Shown one piece after another: positions 17,023 through 42,180 of a stretch of DNA of 64,000 bases. Made by a program: the position numbers and the translations under genes. Source of the stretch: Nitrospira tepida (GTDB lineage Bacteria; Nitrospirota; Nitrospiria; Nitrospirales; Nitrospiraceae); the NCBI RefSeq assembly GCF_947241125.1, contig NZ_OX365700.1:1178001-1242000 (forward strand), read 5' to 3'. Under the pieces are notes generated by a model. It ran no database searches and was not told where the DNA came from. It worked only from the letters and a program-made list of their open reading frames with translations. The first letter of the stretch is position 1. Every line of letters begins with the position of its first letter.

Positions 17023-17098
17023 GCCGGCGTAGCTCAGTTGGTAGAGCAGCGGTTTCGTAAACCGCAGGTCGCTGGTTCGATCCCAGTCGCCGGCTCCA
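17023..17098 (+). tRNA. tRNA-Thr (anticodon CGT)
   Basis: A full cloverleaf can be drawn: acceptor GCCGGCG/CGCCGGC (17023-17029, 17088-17094), D arm GCTC...GAGC, anticodon stem GCGGT/ACCGC with loop TTCGTAA (anticodon CGT at 17056-17058), and T arm GCTGG/CCAGT with TTCGATC. The discriminator is T95, and CCA is encoded at 17096-17098. A structured repeat array begins two bases after the CCA. Confidence 0.97.
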
Positions 17099-17100
17099 TA

Positions 17101-17585
17101 CCAACCTTCGGTTGTACCAGCGGCTCATCGGGCGAAGCCCCTCCCCATTGACGCCGCTGGAGAAAACCGCAAGTGGCTTGTTCTCCTGATCCAACCTTCG
17201 GTTGTGCCGCTGACCTATTTTGAAACTTATCGTAACGAAGGTCAGCAGAGAAATACCTCCAGTGATTGTTTCTTTTGATCCAACCTTCGTGTGAGCCGGG
17301 CGCTCTTCATCGGTGTTCCGTATATGACGCGCCCGGAGAAAACCGCCAGTAGTCTTGTTGTTAGATCCGCACTTCGTGAGTCCCGCCGGCTCTTCAGGCG
17401 CAGCCTTCTTCATGGACGCCGGCGGAGAAACCCCTCCAAGGATTCCCGTTACTAACCTTCATGTGTACCAGCGGCTCATCGGGCGTAGCCCATCCTCAAT
17501 AGCTCCGCTGAAGAAAACCACCAGTGATTGTTTGAACCAACCTTCGGTTGAACCGGCGGTTCATCAGGCTGGCGCGTAACCGTCC
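17101..17585 (+). repeat. tandem array of ~84-90 bp structured repeats, units 1-6
   Basis: Units begin with CCAACCTTCGGTTG or a close variant at about 17101, 17191, 17280, 17367, 17453 and 17537. Each has three parts. First comes a small CAACC/GGTTG hairpin. Next is a larger hairpin whose arms differ between units but stay complementary: CCAGCGGC/GCCGCTGG, GCTGACC/GGTCAGC, CCGGGCGC/GCGCCCGG, CGCCGGC/GCCGGCG, CAGCGG/CCGCTG. Last is a conserved GAGAAAACC...CCAGTGATTGTT linker. No sustained reading frame is present. The array starts directly behind tRNA-Thr and may be co-transcribed with it. Function unknown; the changing but paired stems argue for selection on structure. Confidence 0.75.
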
Positions 17586-17789
17586 GGTCATTGGCTCTCA
17601 AGCGGCCTTGCACCCTGGTGTAGCAACATGTTCTGGAAGGGCACTCTGTGAGCTTCTTTTTGCCCAGATGGCGGCAGTTTGGTATGGTTAATGAAGCGCA
17701 TCACCGATGTTGGGCCATGCACCGCTCATCTCTTTGCTTGAGAAGTGAGTTGGAGTGATCCACATCGCGGATAAATCGGAGGGACACGT

Positions 17790-18068
17790 ATGGAAACGAC
17801 TCACAAAGTGACCAAAGTGACGCAGGTCCTTGTCGCCATAATCACTGCAAGTGCGTGTTTGGGCTGCGCCGAAGCGAAGATCGGTATTGGCCCGTTCAAA
17901 GCCGCATCGGTGGAAGTCGGACCGGGGGGCGTTGAGGCAAAAGGCCCCAGCGCGGGGCCATTCAAGGCCACGTCAGCGGAGGTCGGACCAGGCGGTGCCG
18001 AGGCGAAGGGTCCCAGCGCAGGACCTGTAGGAAACACGAAGGCGAAATCACAACCGAAGGAGAAATAA
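17790..18068 (+). CDS. small lipoprotein with internal duplication
   Basis: 92 residues. A hydrophobic leader ends in a lipobox (CLGC), giving a mature protein of about 67 residues made of two copies of a GPFKA(A/T)S(V/A)EVGPGG(V/A)EAKGPSAGP-type repeat and a Lys-rich tail. The GGAGG-containing stretch just upstream fits a ribosome-binding site. It lies between two blocks of the structured DNA repeats. Function not recognised; Gly/Pro-rich low-complexity lipoproteins are often cell-surface spacers. Confidence 0.7.
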   Translation: METTHKVTKVTQVLVAIITASACLGCAEAKIGIGPFKAASVEVGPGGVEAKGPSAGPFKATSAEVGPGGAEAKGPSAGPVGNTKAKSQPKEK

Positions 18069-18086
18069 TCGAGCGGAGTGCCGAAT

Positions 18087-18260
18087 CCAACCTCCATTTC
18101 TACACCAGCGGCTCGTCGGGCGCAGCTCTTCCCCATTGGCGCCGCTACAGAGAACTGCCAGTGATTCTTCCCGGTTGATCCAACCTTCGGTTGAACCGCT
18201 CGCCGATTTATCGACGGCGAACGGAGAAATCCTCCCGTAGGCTTCACTTCCAATCCAGTC
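18087..18260 (+). repeat. structured repeats, units 7-8 plus a partial unit
   Basis: Same family as the block at 17101: units start at 18087 and 18180 (93 bp apart), with a degenerate start near 18250. Variable paired stems include CAGCGGC/GCCGCT and TCGCCG/CGGCGA. The linker CCAGTGATTCTT is conserved in unit 7. The two blocks are separated by about 500 bp containing the small lipoprotein gene. Confidence 0.65.
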
Positions 18261-18429: not shown

Positions 18430-20925
18430 ATGACTAAGCTCACCCTCGGCCAACTCTCGGGTCTTTTATTCCGCGCCTGCGACGATTTGCGCGGGAACAT
18501 GGATGCATCCGAATACAAGGAATACATCTTCGGCATGCTCTTCCTGAAACGGATGAGCGATCTGTTCGATCAGGAGCGCGAGCAGCTTGCCAAAGATCTC
18601 AAGGCGAGAGGGATGTCCGAGAGCCAAATTGCCGCGCAACTTGCCAATCCGGATAAATACACCTTCTTCGTTCCCGAAAATGCCCATTGGTCGAAGATTC
18701 GCCACCTCAAGACCAACGTCGGGACCGGCCTCAACAAGGCGCTCGAAGCGTTGGAAGACGCGAACGTCGATCCGCTGCAGGACGTGCTCAAGCACATCAA
18801 CTTCAACCGCAAGATCGGTCAGCGGACGCTGGACGACGACACGCTTGCCAATTTCGTCCAGAACTTCGAGAAGATTCCGCTCCGCGACGAGAACTTCGAG
18901 TTTCCCGACCTGCTTGGCGCAGCCTACGAATATCTGATCAAGTTTTTCGCCGACTCGGCGGGAAAGAAGGCGGGAGAGTTCTACACCCCGGCGGAAGTGG
19001 TGCGGACTCTGGTCGAGATCGTCGATCCCCAGCCCGGTATGAGCGTGTACGACCCGACGTGCGGGTCGGGCGGCATGCTCATTCAGACCCGGGACTATAT
19101 CCGGGAATGCGGCGGCGACCCGCGGGACCTCTCGCTGTATGGGCAAGAGAGCATCGGGACCACCTGGTCCATCTGTAAGATGAACATGCTCCTCCACGGC
19201 ATCGCCCATGCCGACATCCGCCAGGAAGACACGATTCGCCGTCCCCAGCACAAGGACGAGAACAACGAACTCAAGCGCTACGACCGTGTGCTGGCCAATC
19301 CGCCCTTCAGCCAGAACTACATCAAAAAGGATATCGAGTATCCGGGCCGCTTCGCCGTCTGGATGCCGGAGAAGGGCAAGAAGGCCGATCTGATGTTTGT
19401 CCAGCACATGCTGGCCGTGCTCAAGGCGGAAGGGAAGATGGCCACCATCATGCCGCACGGCGTCCTGTTTCGGGGCGGGGAGGAGAAGGAAGCCCGGAAA
19501 CACTTCATCGAACGCGGCTGGTTGGAGGCCGTCATCGGCCTGCCGGCCGGCCTGTTCTACGGCACAGGCATTCCGGCCTGCGTCCTGGTGATGAACAAGC
19601 AAGGAGCGGCCGACCGCAAGCATGTCTTCTTCATCAATGCCGACCGGGAATATCGCGAGGGGAAGGCGCAGAACTTCCTCCGTCCGGAAGACATCTCGAA
19701 AATCGTCCACGTGTATCGGGAGCGGAAGGATATCGAAGGCTATGCGCGTCTCGTCCCGGTGAGCGAGATCGAAGCCGAGGACTACAACTGCAATATCCGC
19801 CGCTATGTGGACAACGCGCCGCCGCCGGAACCGCACGACGTGCGGGCGCATCTGCAGGGCGGCGTGCCCGTGAGCGAAATCGACGCCCTCGCCCGTTTTT
19901 GGAACAACTATCCCGGCCTCCGCGAGCGGGTCTTCGTTCCACGCGTCAATAGCGGCCCTCTCCCTCAGGGAGAGGGCAAGGGTGAGGGGCTCTATGCCGA
20001 TTTCGCTCCCGCCGTCGCCGACCTCCGCGCACTCGCCGAATTGGTGAAGAGCGATCCAGGCGTGGCCAAAGCTCGTGCGCGCTTTCTCGACATGCTGGAG
20101 TCCTGGTGGAAAGAGCAGCTCCCGCTCATTGAAGTCCTTGCGCCGACAAACGGCCAGAAAGGCAACGTCTATGAGCTGCGGAGCAGGCTCCTGGCCAGTG
20201 CGACCAAGGCCTTTGCGAATCAGACGCTACTGAATGAGCATCAGATTCGCGGCGCCCTGGCCAGCTACTTCGAGTTCTTCAAGCCGGAGTTCAAATCCAT
20301 CGCATTCAGCGGGTGGGGGCCGGAACTCGTTCCGGATGACGAAATTCTCCAGAGCCAGTTCCCCGACATCCTCGTCGAGATGGAGCAGAAGCGGAGGCGC
20401 TTGGCGGAATTGTCCGGCCTATTCGCGGCAGCCGACGATGATGACTATGATGATGCCAACGACACGGGTGTGCTGCCCGACGAGGAGGTAAAGACCCTGA
20501 AAGCCGACATCAAGGAAGCCAGGGCCCAGGCCAAGTTAGCGAAGAAAGAAAAGCGGGATCAAGCAGAGTTCCACGCCCGCGCCGAGTCGGCCGAGACACG
20601 GCTGGCCCGTCACAAGGCGCTGGAAGATGAAGCCAAGCAGTTGAAGGCCGACCTGCGTGCGATGGAAAAAAGGGAAGAAGAACTCGTGGCCGCCGCCCGA
20701 GAGAAGATCGACCGCAACGAGGCCCGCCGCGTGATCCTCGACCGCCTCCATCGTATTCTCGTTCAGACCTATGAAGGCTACCTCCGCGCCGACCAACGAG
20801 CCTGCACCGCCGCACTGGAAAATCTGTACGCAAAGTACGCCGTGACGGCCAAAGCGATCGAGGCGAAGCGGGACGCCGAGGCGGCGAAGCTGAAGAAGTT
20901 TCTGGAAGAGTTGGGATATGAGTGA
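18430..20925 (+). CDS. hsdM: type I restriction-modification system, methyltransferase subunit HsdM
   Basis: 831-residue N6-adenine methyltransferase. The N-terminal HsdM helical domain ([20 protein letters not shown]) is followed by the SAM-binding motif I (DPTCGSGG from D208) and the catalytic NPPF (N290-F293). It is much longer than the usual ~500 residues: the C-terminal ~330 residues include coiled-coil segments ([20 protein letters not shown]) and an acidic stretch ([13 protein letters not shown]). Residues around 510-520 ([11 protein letters not shown]) are encoded by a DNA palindrome that looks like an inserted repeat. It overlaps hsdS by 8 bp. Together with HsdS it forms the modification enzyme and with HsdR the restriction complex. 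Confidence 0.95.
19956..19976. repeat. perfect 10-bp-arm palindrome inside hsdM
   Basis: CCCTCTCCCT, one base, then AGGGAGAGGG, followed by GCAAGGGTGAGGGG. This word is typical of REP-like palindromes scattered in many bacterial genomes and is read through in frame as [11 protein letters not shown]. It sits between blocks that look like continuous HsdM sequence, so it is probably an in-frame insertion. Confidence 0.7.
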
Positions 20926-22144
20926 GGGCTGGCGAGAAACACCTCTTAGTGAGTTGGCTTCAATTACGATGGGCCAATCGCCACAATCCTCGTGCATCAA
21001 CACCGGAGAGCGTGGTTTGCCCTTTCTTCAAGGCTGTGCGGAGTTCGGCAAGAGGGTACCAGCCGCCAAGCTTCACTGCTCTCCGCCGCTTCGCGTAGCG
21101 AAATCAGGATCAGTTTTAATGAGCGTCCGAGCACCCGTTGGAACAACCAACTTTGCGGATATGGACTATTGCATCGGGCGCGGGCTTGGAGCAGTGTCCG
21201 CTAAGCAAGACGTTGCCGATAACATTTTCCTGCTTCACGCCATAGAACAGAATGTTGGCTTTCTGCACCGGCGTAGTCAGGGATCGACATTCCTGGCTAT
21301 TGGGTCAAAGGATTTGTCTGCCCTTCCAGTGCCTTCATTGGCTCTTGGAATGCAGCGCCGCATCGCCGAAATCCTTTCGACGGTGGACGAGGCGATTGAG
21401 CAGACGGAGGCGCTGATTGCGAAGTATCAGCAAATTAAGGCTGGGCTGATGCACGACCTCTTCACCCGCGGCGTCACGCCTGACGGTCGACTCCGTCACA
21501 CCCGCGTCGAAGCGCCCCACCTTTACAAAGAGTCTCCCCTCGGCTGGATTCCGAAGGAATGGGAAGTGGTTCGGCTTGATATGGTTTCTGAGGTTGACCG
21601 CGGAAAATTCACAGTCAGGCCAAGAAATGATCCTCGGTTCTACGGCGGACAATACCCCTTTATACAAACAGGTGATGTCGCGTTTGCTGGAGGGCGAACG
21701 CTTAAAAGCTACGCTCAAAGCCTTAATGAGCTTGGATTGTCAGTGAGCAAGTTATTCCCTCCGGGCACAATCATGGTCACAATTGCAGCCAATATTGCTG
21801 ATACGTGCATCCTTGGGATGCCGATGTGTGCGCCCGATAGCCTTGTGGGGGTTCAGCCCAAGACGCGAGAGGATGCGAGGTTTATTGAACTCAGCATACG
21901 GCGGCGAAAATCCTGGTTGGAGTCTCGCGCTCCTCAGACGGCACAGAGAAATATCAACCTTGAAGACCTGCGCCCGTTAATAATTCCGTGGCCTAAGGGG
22001 TGGGAGCGATCGCGGATTTCTGAGATATACGAAACACAGGATTCTGCGATAAGAGCTTGCGAAGAGCAGCTTGCGAAACTCCAGAAAGAAAAGCAGGGCC
22101 TCATGCACGACCTCCTTTCTGGAAGGGTGAGGGTGGATGGGTGA
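20918..22144 (+). CDS. hsdS: type I restriction-modification system, specificity subunit HsdS
   Basis: 408 residues with the two-half HsdS plan: TRD1 (about 1-145), a helical spacer ending [16 protein letters not shown]2 (about 200-345) and a second helix ending [13 protein letters not shown]. The two conserved helices set the distance between half-sites of a bipartite target. The recognition sequence cannot be predicted from this sequence alone. The start overlaps the hsdM stop by 8 bp. Confidence 0.94.
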
Positions 22145-22196
22145 AGTGTGAAAGAAACAAATTGGGATGGGTGAGGGCGGAAGTGTGAAGGATGAA

Positions 22197-22592
22197 ATGA
22201 AGGCGGGAGCGAAGGAGAACTTTCTTCGTCGAACTTCGCCCGTCTCTCTTCCAGATCGGACTTTTGAGTTTGCCCGACAAATCGTGAGGCTGTGTCTTGT
22301 TCTGGAGAGCAAGCAAGGGGTCTCGCGCACGCTTTGTCGCCAGCTCTTGCGATCGGGAACCTCCATCGGCGCGAATGTAGAGGAAGGCCAGGCCTCACAA
22401 AGTGAAGCAGACTTCCTCAGCAAGTATTCCATCGCCTGTAAAGAAGCGCGTGAGACCCATTACTGGCTTCGGCTTCTTGCGTCGGTGAAACTTGTCGATC
22501 CAGCTCGACTCAGTGTGATGACAGATGAATGTAATGAACTCATCGCCATCCTCACGAGCATCTGCAAGAAACTTCGGGGGAGACGCCCATGA
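22197..22592 (+). CDS. four-helix bundle protein (23S rRNA intervening-sequence/Avd-like family)
   Basis: 131 residues from the ATG at 22197; an upstream ATG at 22167 would give 141. Family signatures are RTFEFARQIVRL, RQLLRSGTSIGANVEEGQA and FLSKYSIACKEARETHYWL. These proteins form pentameric or smaller helical bundles; many are stand-alone genes of unknown role, and the DGR protein Avd is one characterised relative. No reverse transcriptase or rRNA gene is nearby. It is flanked by similar purine-rich/pyrimidine-rich runs in opposite orientation (GTGAAGTGTGAAAG at the left, TTTCACCCTTCAAAC at the right). Confidence 0.82.
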   Translation: MKAGAKENFLRRTSPVSLPDRTFEFARQIVRLCLVLESKQGVSRTLCRQLLRSGTSIGANVEEGQASQSEADFLSKYSIACKEARETHYWLRLLASVKLVDPARLSVMTDECNELIAILTSICKKLRGRRP

Positions 22593-22862
22593 CTGCTGTT
22601 TTCACCCTTCAAACTTTACTCTTCACCACTCTCTTAACCGTGCGTGTGAAGGTGGAGGAGTCGAAGGGGAAGGCCTGAGCAGAAGCGAAAGGGGCCACCA
22701 AGGGTGTGGGTACTAAGCTAGGCAACCATAGGAAATTACTATTCGGGTTTAGATAGGCCATCCATTGCATAGCTATTGACTGCAAAATGTTCAATTTGTA
22801 AACCATCCAGCGCCATTCAAGGTAGAACAGCTCGTCACTTCAATGGGTTTGCAATAGTTATA
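22593..22862. other. intergenic region between the four-helix-bundle gene and abiE genes
   Basis: Begins with a pyrimidine-rich run (TTTCACCCTTCAAAC, TCTTCACC) that mirrors sequence left of the preceding gene. The remainder is more AT-rich than the surroundings. TATAAA at 22860-22865 may be a -10 box overlapping the adjacent operator. No gene was seen. Confidence 0.4.
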
Positions 22863-22887
22863 AAATGCATACATACTGTATGCATTT
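22863..22887. promoter_or_regulatory. palindromic operator of the AbiE toxin-antitoxin pair
   Basis: AAATGCATAC (22863-22872), spacer ATACT, GTATGCATTT (22878-22887): a perfect 10-bp inverted repeat 18 bases before the antitoxin start. AbiEi-family antitoxins are known to bind inverted repeats and repress their own promoter, so this is the expected autoregulatory site. Confidence 0.7.
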
Positions 22888-22904
22888 GACGACTAATGTA
22901 AACC

Positions 22905-23690
22905 ATGGCTCTCCCATCAAAGAAGACGTCGTTGGATCGGCTCCCTCCGGAGGGGCAGCTCGTCAATCGCGCATGGCTACGAACGCGCGGTGTCACTCGC
23001 CCTCTTGTGGACTTCTGGTTGAGATCAGGAAAGCTCGAAGCCGTTTCTCACGGTCTCTACCGACGGCCGGGGCCTCCGCTCAAGTGGGAACAGGTTGTCT
23101 ATTCGGTGAACGAAATGGGCGTCCAAGTTCACGTCGGAGGGCGCACCGCCCTGGAACTGCAGGGATTGGCGCATTACCTGCCACTGCAGGGTGTCACCAG
23201 GGTGTCCCTCTACACGACGTCAAAGGTGCCGCCCTGGGTGCAAAGATTCCCGGCCGACTATACGTTTACCGTTCATCGCGGAAAGCTCTTCAAGACGTTG
23301 CCGGGCGGGGCTCTTGTCTCAAAGCCGTTTGGGGCCTGGGATTGGCCGGTGCCGTATGCCACCGTGGAATTGGCGCTCTTGGAGTATCTGGCGGATGTCC
23401 GTACTGAGGACAGCTTCGATTTCGCGGATAAGTTTTTCGAAGGTGCCTCGGTCCTTCGCCCGGCGCTGATCCGCGAGTTGCTATTATCCTGTTCGCATGT
23501 GCTGGCGAAGCGACTCTTCCTGTGGTTTGCCGAGAGACACGAGTACGCCTGGTTCAAGAAGCTCGATACAACGGGAGTCGATCTTGGCCACGGCAAACGC
23601 GCAGTGGTCAAAGGCGGTGCGCTGGATACGAAGTATCTGATCACCGTTCCTAGGACCATGGTGCATGGTCACGGACAACCGGTTTACTGA
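22905..23690 (+). CDS. AbiEi-family antitoxin (type IV toxin-antitoxin)
   Basis: 261 residues. The N-terminal winged-helix-like segment (GQLVNRAWLRTRGVTRPLVDFWLRSG, then LYRRPG) is followed by the AbiEi C-terminal domain (GGRTALELQGLAHYLP, SLYTTSKVPPW, YATVELALLEYL). It would neutralise the downstream nucleotidyltransferase toxin and repress transcription at the 22863 palindrome. There is no clear Shine-Dalgarno before the ATG. The 26-bp overlap with the toxin gene implies coupling. Confidence 0.87.
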   Translation: MALPSKKTSLDRLPPEGQLVNRAWLRTRGVTRPLVDFWLRSGKLEAVSHGLYRRPGPPLKWEQVVYSVNEMGVQVHVGGRTALELQGLAHYLPLQGVTRVSLYTTSKVPPWVQRFPADYTFTVHRGKLFKTLPGGALVSKPFGAWDWPVPYATVELALLEYLADVRTEDSFDFADKFFEGASVLRPALIRELLLSCSHVLAKRLFLWFAERHEYAWFKKLDTTGVDLGHGKRAVVKGGALDTKYLITVPRTMVHGHGQPVY

Positions 23691-24582
23691 GCAAGTTCGT
23701 CTGCTGGTTACGGTGCTGCCTCATGTGGCGCGCCAAGGCTGTTTCGCCCTCAAGGGCGGAACAGCCTTGAATCTGTTTGTCCGGGACATGCCTCGTTTGT
23801 CCGTCGATATTGATCTGGCCTATTTACCGGTTCAAGATCGCGAGACCAGTCTGACTGCAATCGATCAAGCGCTGAAGGCGATTGCCGCAGATATTGCGCG
23901 CGCCGTCCCTGGCGTGAACGTGCAAGGCTCAGTGTTGAGCGGGACGATGGGATGGTTCAAACTCGTGGTGGAACGTGGGGGTGTTCGCGTCAAGATTGAA
24001 GTCACGCCGGTGTTGCGCGGAAGTGTCTATTCGTCCGAACTACGTGAGCTGGTGCCACGAGCGCAGGCGGAGTTCGGCTATGCTCAGGTGCAGGTGCTGA
24101 GTTTCGAAGATTTGTATGCAGGGAAACTCTGCGCCGCGTTGGACCGACAACATCCGCGCGATTTGTTCGATGTACGCCTCTTGTTGGCGGCGGAGGGAAT
24201 TACGCCGCGCTTAAAGAATGCCTTCCTCGTGTACTTGATCAGCCACAACCGGCCGATGGCGGAACTGATCGCTCCAACGCGTAAGGACAACAGGGCTATT
24301 TATGAGGGTGAGTTCGCCGGGATGGCGATCGAACTGGTCACATTGGAAGTGCTGGATGCCGCACGCGAACAGTTAATCACAACCATTCAGCGGTCGCTAA
24401 CGGAAGAGGACCGGCAGTTTCTGCTAGCGGTCAAGCGGGGCGATGCAGACTGGAGCATGTTTCCCATTCCCGGAGCCAAGAACTTGCCGGCCGTTCAGTG
24501 GAAGCTACAAAATCTTTCTCGGATGGAACCGGCCAAACGTCAGAAGGCTTTCCGATCCTTGGAACGTGTCCTGTACGGATAG
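23665..24582 (+). CDS. AbiEii-family nucleotidyltransferase toxin
   Basis: 305 residues. The nucleotidyltransferase motif is GGTALNLF (G31-T33) with SVDIDL supplying metal-binding Asp residues. Further family motifs are KIEVTPV and SFEDLYAGKLCAALDRQHPRDLFDV. AbiEii toxins transfer nucleotides to target RNAs such as tRNA acceptor ends and cause growth arrest or abortive infection; the target here is not known. The gene ends 4 bp before hsdR, placing the toxin inside the restriction operon. Confidence 0.88.
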   Translation: MVTDNRFTEQVRLLVTVLPHVARQGCFALKGGTALNLFVRDMPRLSVDIDLAYLPVQDRETSLTAIDQALKAIAADIARAVPGVNVQGSVLSGTMGWFKLVVERGGVRVKIEVTPVLRGSVYSSELRELVPRAQAEFGYAQVQVLSFEDLYAGKLCAALDRQHPRDLFDVRLLLAAEGITPRLKNAFLVYLISHNRPMAELIAPTRKDNRAIYEGEFAGMAIELVTLEVLDAAREQLITTIQRSLTEEDRQFLLAVKRGDADWSMFPIPGAKNLPAVQWKLQNLSRMEPAKRQKAFRSLERVLYG

Positions 24583-40990: not shown

Positions 40991-41224
40991 TCGGCCGTGA
41001 CATCATCCTCGGCCACTGTGAATGATTCAGCGTCGCCTTGCCGGTCACGTTCGAGCTCTGTTGCTCTCTCGCAGATTCTGTCGAACATCACGCTCGGGGA
41101 TGGAGTTCCCCAAATCAAACCGCCGATAGCGGGGCTGCTGACTCCTCCGCTACAGATGGCTGTAGCCATGGAGTGGTCACGAATGTCGTGATCCCCGCCA
41201 CCAGGCGGTTTTGTTGTTTCGGCT
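40948..41224 (+). repeat. imperfect direct repeat, copy 1 (higA tail + degenerate riboswitch)
   Basis: From CCGCAGGATTCA in the end of higA to the T-run after GGCGG. Copy 2 is at 41918-42180 and pairs with it along its length with scattered changes and small indels. The two copies flank a toxin-antitoxin pair. Confidence 0.8.
41093..41216 (+). promoter_or_regulatory. degenerate fluoride (crcB) riboswitch copy without a gene
   Basis: The P1 hairpin GGGG...CCCC with loop GGAGT (41102-41106) and its pseudoknot partner ACTCC (41141-41145) are kept, as is AAACCGCC and the terminator CCGCC/GGCGG (41195-41208) with TTTTG. The conserved core TGATGACTCCTAC reads TGCTGACTCCTCC here: two A-to-C changes at nearly invariant positions. 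No plus-strand gene follows, only the minus-strand toxin gene. It is probably non-functional, or a constitutive terminator. Confidence 0.72.
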
Positions 41225-41998: not shown

Positions 41999-42051
41999 CG
42001 CGTCGTCTTGCCCCTCGCATTCGATCTCTGGTACGCTCTCGACATCACGCA

Positions 42052-42180
42052 GTTGGGGATGGAGTCCCCCAGATCAAACCGCCGATGGCCGGGCTGATGA
42101 CTCCTACGGTACAGATGGCTGTAGCCATGGAGTGGTCACGAATGTCGTGATCCCCGCCACCAGGCGGTTTTGTGGTTTCT
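42052..42180 (+). promoter_or_regulatory. fluoride (crcB) riboswitch with intrinsic terminator
   Basis: Aptamer 42052-42108: GGGG (42055-42058) pairs with CCCC (42066-42070). Loop GGAGT (42061-42065) can pseudoknot with ACTCC (42100-42104), and the conserved core GCTGATGACTCCTAC is intact. Expression platform: AAACCGCC (42076-42083) can pair with GGCGGTTT (42163-42170), competing with the terminator hairpin CCGCC-ACCA-GGCGG (42154-42167) and its T-rich tail. Fluoride riboswitches typically control fluoride exporters and Na+/H+-type antiporters; a CPA2 antiporter starts 25 bases downstream. Fluoride would be expected to relieve termination. Confidence 0.88.

Follow-up and report, generated by a model that had tools for sequence, protein, structure and literature searches.

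A family of small dispersed palindromic repeats in Nitrospiraceae, located directly behind tRNA genes and at antisense Shine-Dalgarno sequences

Short structured repeats are found in bacterial genomes in several forms, of which five come closest to the repeats described here. The REP, BIME and REPIN sequences, linked to the RAYT transposase (TnpA-REP), are short, dispersed and clustered extragenic palindromes with covarying stems and a family-restricted distribution. Non-autonomous elements derived from IS200/IS605 have hairpins near their ends, a fixed tetranucleotide at the left flank and no obvious terminal inverted repeats. Bacterial MITEs and other small mobile repeats (Correia, RUP, ERIC, RU-1/2/3) are dispersed between genes, and repeats of the Correia, RUP and ERIC type typically carry the terminal inverted repeats of known insertion sequences. 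Two further systems form tandem arrays: the attC sites of integrons, which are structured and variable in sequence, and the rtT repeats directly behind the E. coli tRNA-Tyr gene tyrT, whose units contain tRNA 3' sequence and are tied to that one locus. RU-1/2/3 elements are treated as small mobile repeats in the available text of PMC2759123. Here we describe repeats of Nitrospira tepida that probably represent a non-autonomous, hairpin-recognised miniature mobile element of ~80-100 bp, exclusive to Nitrospiraceae and inserting at CNCC(A).

The window that we analyzed, a stretch of 64,000 nucleotides, includes a gene for tRNA-Thr (CGT) with an encoded CCA (17023..17098, plus strand; identified by ARAGORN and Rfam), whose terminal CTCC(A) forms the target site of a tandem array on the same strand. 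The original prediction of at least eight units in tandem behind this gene was confirmed by a covariance model derived from units of the same genome, which finds eight units in 17098-18250 at a spacing of 85-92 bp, six of them consecutive (17097-17615) and two past a small open reading frame (18088-18250), with scores from 90.6 to 25.3 bits and E-values from 8e-28 to 2e-5. According to the model, the units start at 17097, 17187, 17276, 17363, 17448, 17533, 18088 and 18176. They occupy 17098..17186 (unit 1, 90.6 bits), 17187..17275 (unit 2, 59.2 bits), 17276..17362 (unit 3, 59.9 bits), 17363..17447 (unit 4, 77.6 bits, the match extending to 17452), 17448..17532 (unit 5, with a partly decayed main stem, 57.5 bits, match 17448-17537), 17533..17615 (unit 6, degenerate, 25.3 bits), 18088..18174 (unit 7, degenerate, 39.9 bits) and 18176..18250 (unit 8, 38.2 bits). 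The left end of the array abuts the encoded CCA (17096-17098), and the junction, CTCC/ATACC with the slash marking the boundary, falls after 17097.

Two neighbouring features had also been noted. The small repeat lipoprotein said to be embedded in the array corresponds to an open reading frame of 92 aa in the ORF list (17790..18068, plus strand), which sits between units 6 and 7 and has a lipobox-like N-terminus and an internal repeat; it has no match in Pfam, and is probably unrelated to the element. The predicted defence island was confirmed; it lies immediately to the right of the array (18430-24582) and encodes type I HsdM and HsdS, followed by an AbiEi/AbiEii type IV toxin-antitoxin system.

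A unit begins with ATACC or a variant of it (GATCC, TTACT), continues with a 5-bp hairpin, H1 (CAACC-TTC-GGTTG or CAAGC-TTC-GCTTG), and an 8-bp main stem, H2, which often encloses a small inner hairpin, and ends with (G)GAGAAAMACC and a pyrimidine-rich tail. In unit 1, ATACC and the CAACC-TTC-GGTTG version of H1 precede a main stem with the arms CCAGCGGC and GCCGCTGG and the pyrimidine-rich tail. An alignment of 55 units of this genome shows a nearly invariant GGAG at the foot of H2, which is complementary to CTCC. Variants that keep H1 and have a wholly different main hairpin (AGTCAGTC...GACTGACAACTT) are found at L168 (4932-5125, minus strand) and L201:2580-2680.

The main stem arms were claimed to differ and yet to remain complementary in each unit. 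This is the case for units 1-4 and 8, where pairing is full or nearly so, and not for units 5-7, which are degraded. The further claim, that compensatory change reveals selection on the structure, was upheld by the covariation test proposed with it. Among 55 distinct units of this genome, standard pairs make up 93% of pair cells, changes on both sides of a pair in H1 and H2 number 87 against 22.4 in shuffled alignments, and the score for covariation reaches 0.290, compared with 0.097 in shuffles and at most 0.081 in controls slid by 1-3 columns. Many different, fully paired H2 arms exist among the copies of the genome. Mispairs are equally divided in H2 between GT (20) and AC (20), a balance that shows no trace of selection acting on a single RNA strand and is as expected where the recognised structure is DNA; in H1 there are 32 GT and 4 AC.

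The array is one of many. The covariance model, with 150 candidates scored, detects at least 136 copies in the genome, in 64 arrays of 1-7 units, and a BLAST search with one unit matches about 70 places. The proposed search of Nitrospira and other genomes recovered the element in 150 of 175 Nitrospiraceae genomes and 17 of 22 genera, and in a phylum-wide sample of 396 genomes every one with a match belongs to Nitrospiraceae, with no match outside this family. An exact scan of GTDB contigs for the left end likewise returns almost only Nitrospira(ceae) records, including N. moscoviensis; the three exceptions are apparently due to chance or mis-binning. No match is present in 50,697 phage records or 72,556 plasmid records. 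Rfam 15 has no family for the units, in agreement with the initial failure to recognise them as a named family, and its matches in the window are limited to the tRNA and two fluoride riboswitches (41087-41154 and 42046-42113, on the same strand and ~1 kb apart). A search of open-licence papers yielded no description of the family, and RepRanger (PMC12306157), in its available text, gives REP counts for N. moscoviensis and no such family. We conclude that the element is an apparently undescribed family of a known kind, that of small dispersed palindromic repeats.

This distribution bears on the proposed analogy with attC sites. We considered a chromosomal integron whose attC-like recombination sites would form the array and whose cassette would be the lipoprotein ORF. 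Such an array would, like this one, have structured sites in tandem, with arms that vary yet are complementary, and an ORF in its interior (here between units 6 and 7). However, copies are scattered over 64 places, mostly with no ORF between units and hence no cassettes, the junction is CNCC/ATACC, and the RYYYAAC core box misfits the left end on inspection. This makes an integron origin extremely improbable, and the element is not an attC site, nor is it a terminator or an Rfam family.

The left junction follows a simple rule. In this genome the tetranucleotide preceding the element is CTCC in 35 arrays, CGCC in 9, CACC in 7 and CCCC in 1, so that about 52 of the 64 arrays conform to CNCC. 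Among 83 exact left-end sites of other Nitrospiraceae, 79 have C at position -4, although the search pattern did not demand it, and 34 stand behind a tRNA T-arm. The largest class, 33 of the 64 arrays, has a start codon 4-16 nt off on the opposite strand, with the element abutting an antisense Shine-Dalgarno sequence (CCTCC); the start-codon test alone is permissive, as it also accepts about 24% of the CNCC or CCTCC sites of the window. Genes with the element at their Shine-Dalgarno sequence include, as named from their sequences, leuA, yajQ and flagellar genes. Eight arrays are right behind a full tRNA or tmRNA gene, four stand behind a 3' half-tRNA without the rest of the gene, one follows a short 3' fragment of tRNA-Ser, and another adjoins a tRNA-Ser gene at its 5' end, antisense to it. 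A second dispersed repeat hosts six arrays, always at the same position, and the remaining ones include arrays nested in older copies of the element itself, with junctions ...CCGCC/ATACC and CCCCTC/TATACC. The prediction that the array is tied to tRNA is therefore right for about 14 of the 46 tRNA and tmRNA genes, which either have the element behind them or have ceded it to a distal half-tRNA, and too narrow for the family, whose largest class abuts antisense Shine-Dalgarno sequences. Most of the best copies in relatives follow a tmRNA or one of many kinds of tRNA, in many genera.

The second repeat is about 200 bp long (GGGCGCGTGGAGCC...GAGCCCGCC...TTCATGAATAATGCGGGCTA) and usually solitary, and occurs at L135:3600-3800, L138, L139, L127, L130 and L126, and at L154-L208 in relatives. 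One copy lies by an IS110 transposase gene, and the repeat is possibly an IS110-derived noncoding (bridge-RNA) end. Its identification as HEARO/omega-RNA was dismissed for want of an Rfam match.

tRNA genes universally end in C-N-C-C-A (C72, discriminator N73, C74-C75-A76). tRNA-Pro, which has G72, shows GACC at the junction. We infer that this motif unifies the sites at tRNA ends and those at antisense Shine-Dalgarno sequences. Both are preferred over other CNCC sites, a preference for which the tetranucleotide alone does not account and to which selective retention could contribute.

Comparison of orthologous loci suggests that the element has moved. At the same place as the copies at the Shine-Dalgarno sequences of leuA and yajQ, none is present within 1.5 kb in 16 and 13 orthologues, respectively, from other genera. 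At both genes GGAGG flanks the insert on both sides, a pattern explained either by duplication of the target or by a right end that itself terminates in CCTCC. The right end lacks a sharp definition, and these two clean sites are the only ones that support a target duplication. The pair G117:C1:610001-630000 and G118:C17:419443-439442 is 100% identical over 20 kb, though the genomes are classed as different species, and is therefore useless for finding empty sites. The nearest copy elsewhere in the N. tepida genome is about 84% identical (median), and most dispersed copies are only 80-90% alike, which implies that movement, tandem copies excepted, is not very recent. Species of the same genus have some sites in common (L313/L319 and L320/L327), and this is old vertical inheritance.

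Arrays also have a polarity. Of 39 arrays, 33 have a target-proximal first unit that outscores the last one (Wilcoxon p about 1e-6), which argues for growth at the target end. Internal units often, though not always, end in CTCC, TTCC or CTTC, and a composite of a 44-nt truncated copy and a full copy recurs at several loci with up to 95% identity.

These sites may alternatively be read as those of an RNA module with a function in tRNA trailers or 5' leaders, spread by duplication and maintained by selection, for instance on 3' processing, stability or translational control. Its position exactly at the CCA of tRNAs and tmRNA and at Shine-Dalgarno sites, the compensatory changes in its stems, and the excess of GT over AC in H1 would all be consistent with such a role. 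However, the element is in sense orientation to tRNAs and antisense to the Shine-Dalgarno genes, so that no single strand would be the functional RNA. Moreover, it is missing behind about 70% of the tRNAs of this genome and from leuA and yajQ in 29 of 29 relatives, GT and AC are equal in H2, and Rfam is empty. We consider an RNA module distinctly unlikely, and the original suggestion of an array of small RNAs, against which the last two observations also speak, has no evidence in its favour.

The half-tRNAs offer a view on the age of the arrays. For three of them, a full tRNA on the same strand lies 7-22 kb upstream and matches in blocks of 45-46 nt running from the anticodon loop to the CCA; for the fourth, a full tRNA 3 kb upstream was assigned by position only. 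The element is gone from behind the full copies that were checked. Judging from these sequences, the half-tRNAs appear to be the trace of island integration at the anticodon loop, which would have pushed the array to the far end of the island; arrays displaced in this way would be older than the islands. The tRNA gene had been proposed as an insertion hotspot, and in this sense only, the entry of islands into some tRNAs, the proposal finds support. The four apparent islands of the N. tepida genome (G000), each with the full tRNA at one end and its 3' half with the displaced array 3-22 kb on (by position only for the fourth), are at 646551-668298 (L012), 1649550-1656370 (L018), 2789094-2798533 (L135) and 4000386-4003366 (L031). 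tRNA gene fragments in prokaryotes are, as far as its available text goes, the subject of PMC9897764.

Left junctions are precise and right junctions variable, which would also fit a retroposition mechanism, in which an element RNA ending in ...GGUAU-3' is copied from a CNCC-3'OH primer at a nick. The 3' half-tRNAs next to arrays might then be taken for retroposed cDNA, a possibility that we rejected, as the full tRNA lies upstream on the same strand and the blocks of identity are typical of island att sites. The only reverse transcriptase of the genome reaches the curated cut-off of no group II intron or retron-type model; it adjoins a gene similar to those of formylglycine-generating enzymes (FGE-sulfatase-like; L248, G000 1807083), and reads as part of a probable diversity-generating retroelement. 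Retroposition is thus very unlikely.

The miniature mobile element that we favour consists of H1, a small hairpin on the left, of the main hairpin H2, which is variable yet mostly complementary, and of a pyrimidine-rich tail, and would be inserted with its left end (ATACC...) directly 3' of CNCC. Since this motif is both the 3' end of tRNA and tmRNA genes and, as CTCC, the complement of a strong Shine-Dalgarno sequence, copies would gather behind the former and upstream of the latter. Later copies would enter or duplicate at the same target, leading to target-proximal growth and decay at the far end. The hairpins may serve as recognition sites for the mobilising enzyme, which would act in trans and recognise structure, probably on single-stranded DNA.

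In its most specific form, this explanation would involve a REP/REPIN- or IS200/IS605-like element moved in trans by a Y1 (HUH) tyrosine transposase, which recognises the hairpins on single-stranded DNA and cuts 3' of CNCC, guided by pairing of the GGAG at the foot of H2 with CTCC. A guide role for GGAG, by analogy with IS200/IS605 elements, would be speculative. The fixed left-flank tetranucleotide, the subterminal hairpins, the CTCC at several internal unit ends and the nearly invariant GGAG after H2 all point in this direction; moreover, the genome has six Y1 loci, and two tested products are distantly related to REP-associated tyrosine transposases, with scores under the cut-off of that model. 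However, no element flanks the Y1 genes of this genome, one of which carries 26-bp terminal inverted repeats unrelated to the element, and a convincing copy lies within 1.5 kb of just one other Y1 locus among those tested. The REP-type 5' GTAG tag is not seen, and five genomes rich in copies (at least 20, where counting stopped at 24; G001, G002, G076, G169 and G171) have no Y1 gene. A linkage of the element to RAYT or Y1 genes is thus unsupported, and we regard this specific form as unlikely. The Y1 transposase with inverted repeats (GGGTCAGGCATGAGTATTGACTT) has a DnaA-C-like domain and is present in two equal-scoring copies 1.8 kb apart, at L040 (G000 3240659) and 3242474.

No mobiliser was identified among the Y1/RAYT and reverse transcriptase genes that we looked at. 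It is conceivable, if doubtful, that the integration machinery of this family-wide element reads C-N-C-C-A and, through this motif, antisense Shine-Dalgarno sequences by means of an enzyme outside both the known Y1/RAYT transposases and the reverse transcriptases. A mobile repeat with landing sites this exact would rewrite tRNA trailers and mRNA leaders throughout a family of nitrifiers that is central ecologically. The precise insertion rule makes the mobilising enzyme searchable, and where copies are unmarked they complicate the annotation of Nitrospira genomes at tRNA loci, leaders and island boundaries.

Among known systems, bacterial MITEs and small mobile repeats share with the element their size, intergenic dispersal and a possible short direct target repeat, whereas we saw no terminal inverted repeats in the element, and its insertion rule is different. 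Derivatives of IS200/IS605 share the hairpins near the ends, the fixed left-flank tetranucleotide and the lack of obvious terminal inverted repeats. Unlike in these, the target is the tRNA-end motif CNCC(A), and none of the scanned Y1 loci holds an autonomous partner with the ends of the element. CTCC, a candidate for a fixed right-end tetranucleotide, is present at some unit ends only. The likeness to REP, BIME and REPIN sequences extends to short dispersed palindromes with covarying stems, clustering, extragenic location and family restriction. However, in the alignment of 55 units no GTAG (or CGTC) tag is found at the foot of H1 or H2, there is a fixed CNCC flank, the element abuts tRNA CCA ends and antisense Shine-Dalgarno sequences, and no RAYT is linked to it. 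attC arrays resemble it in being structured tandem sites of variable sequence, and differ by their cassettes, their junction and the absence of dispersal. At the tRNA-Pro locus of G117 (L117:8300-8700, minus strand), the element alternates with degenerate 3' fragments of tRNA-Pro, like rtT at E. coli tyrT. With the rtT repeats the element has in common the tandem arrangement directly behind a tRNA gene, but its units are without tRNA sequence and are dispersed.
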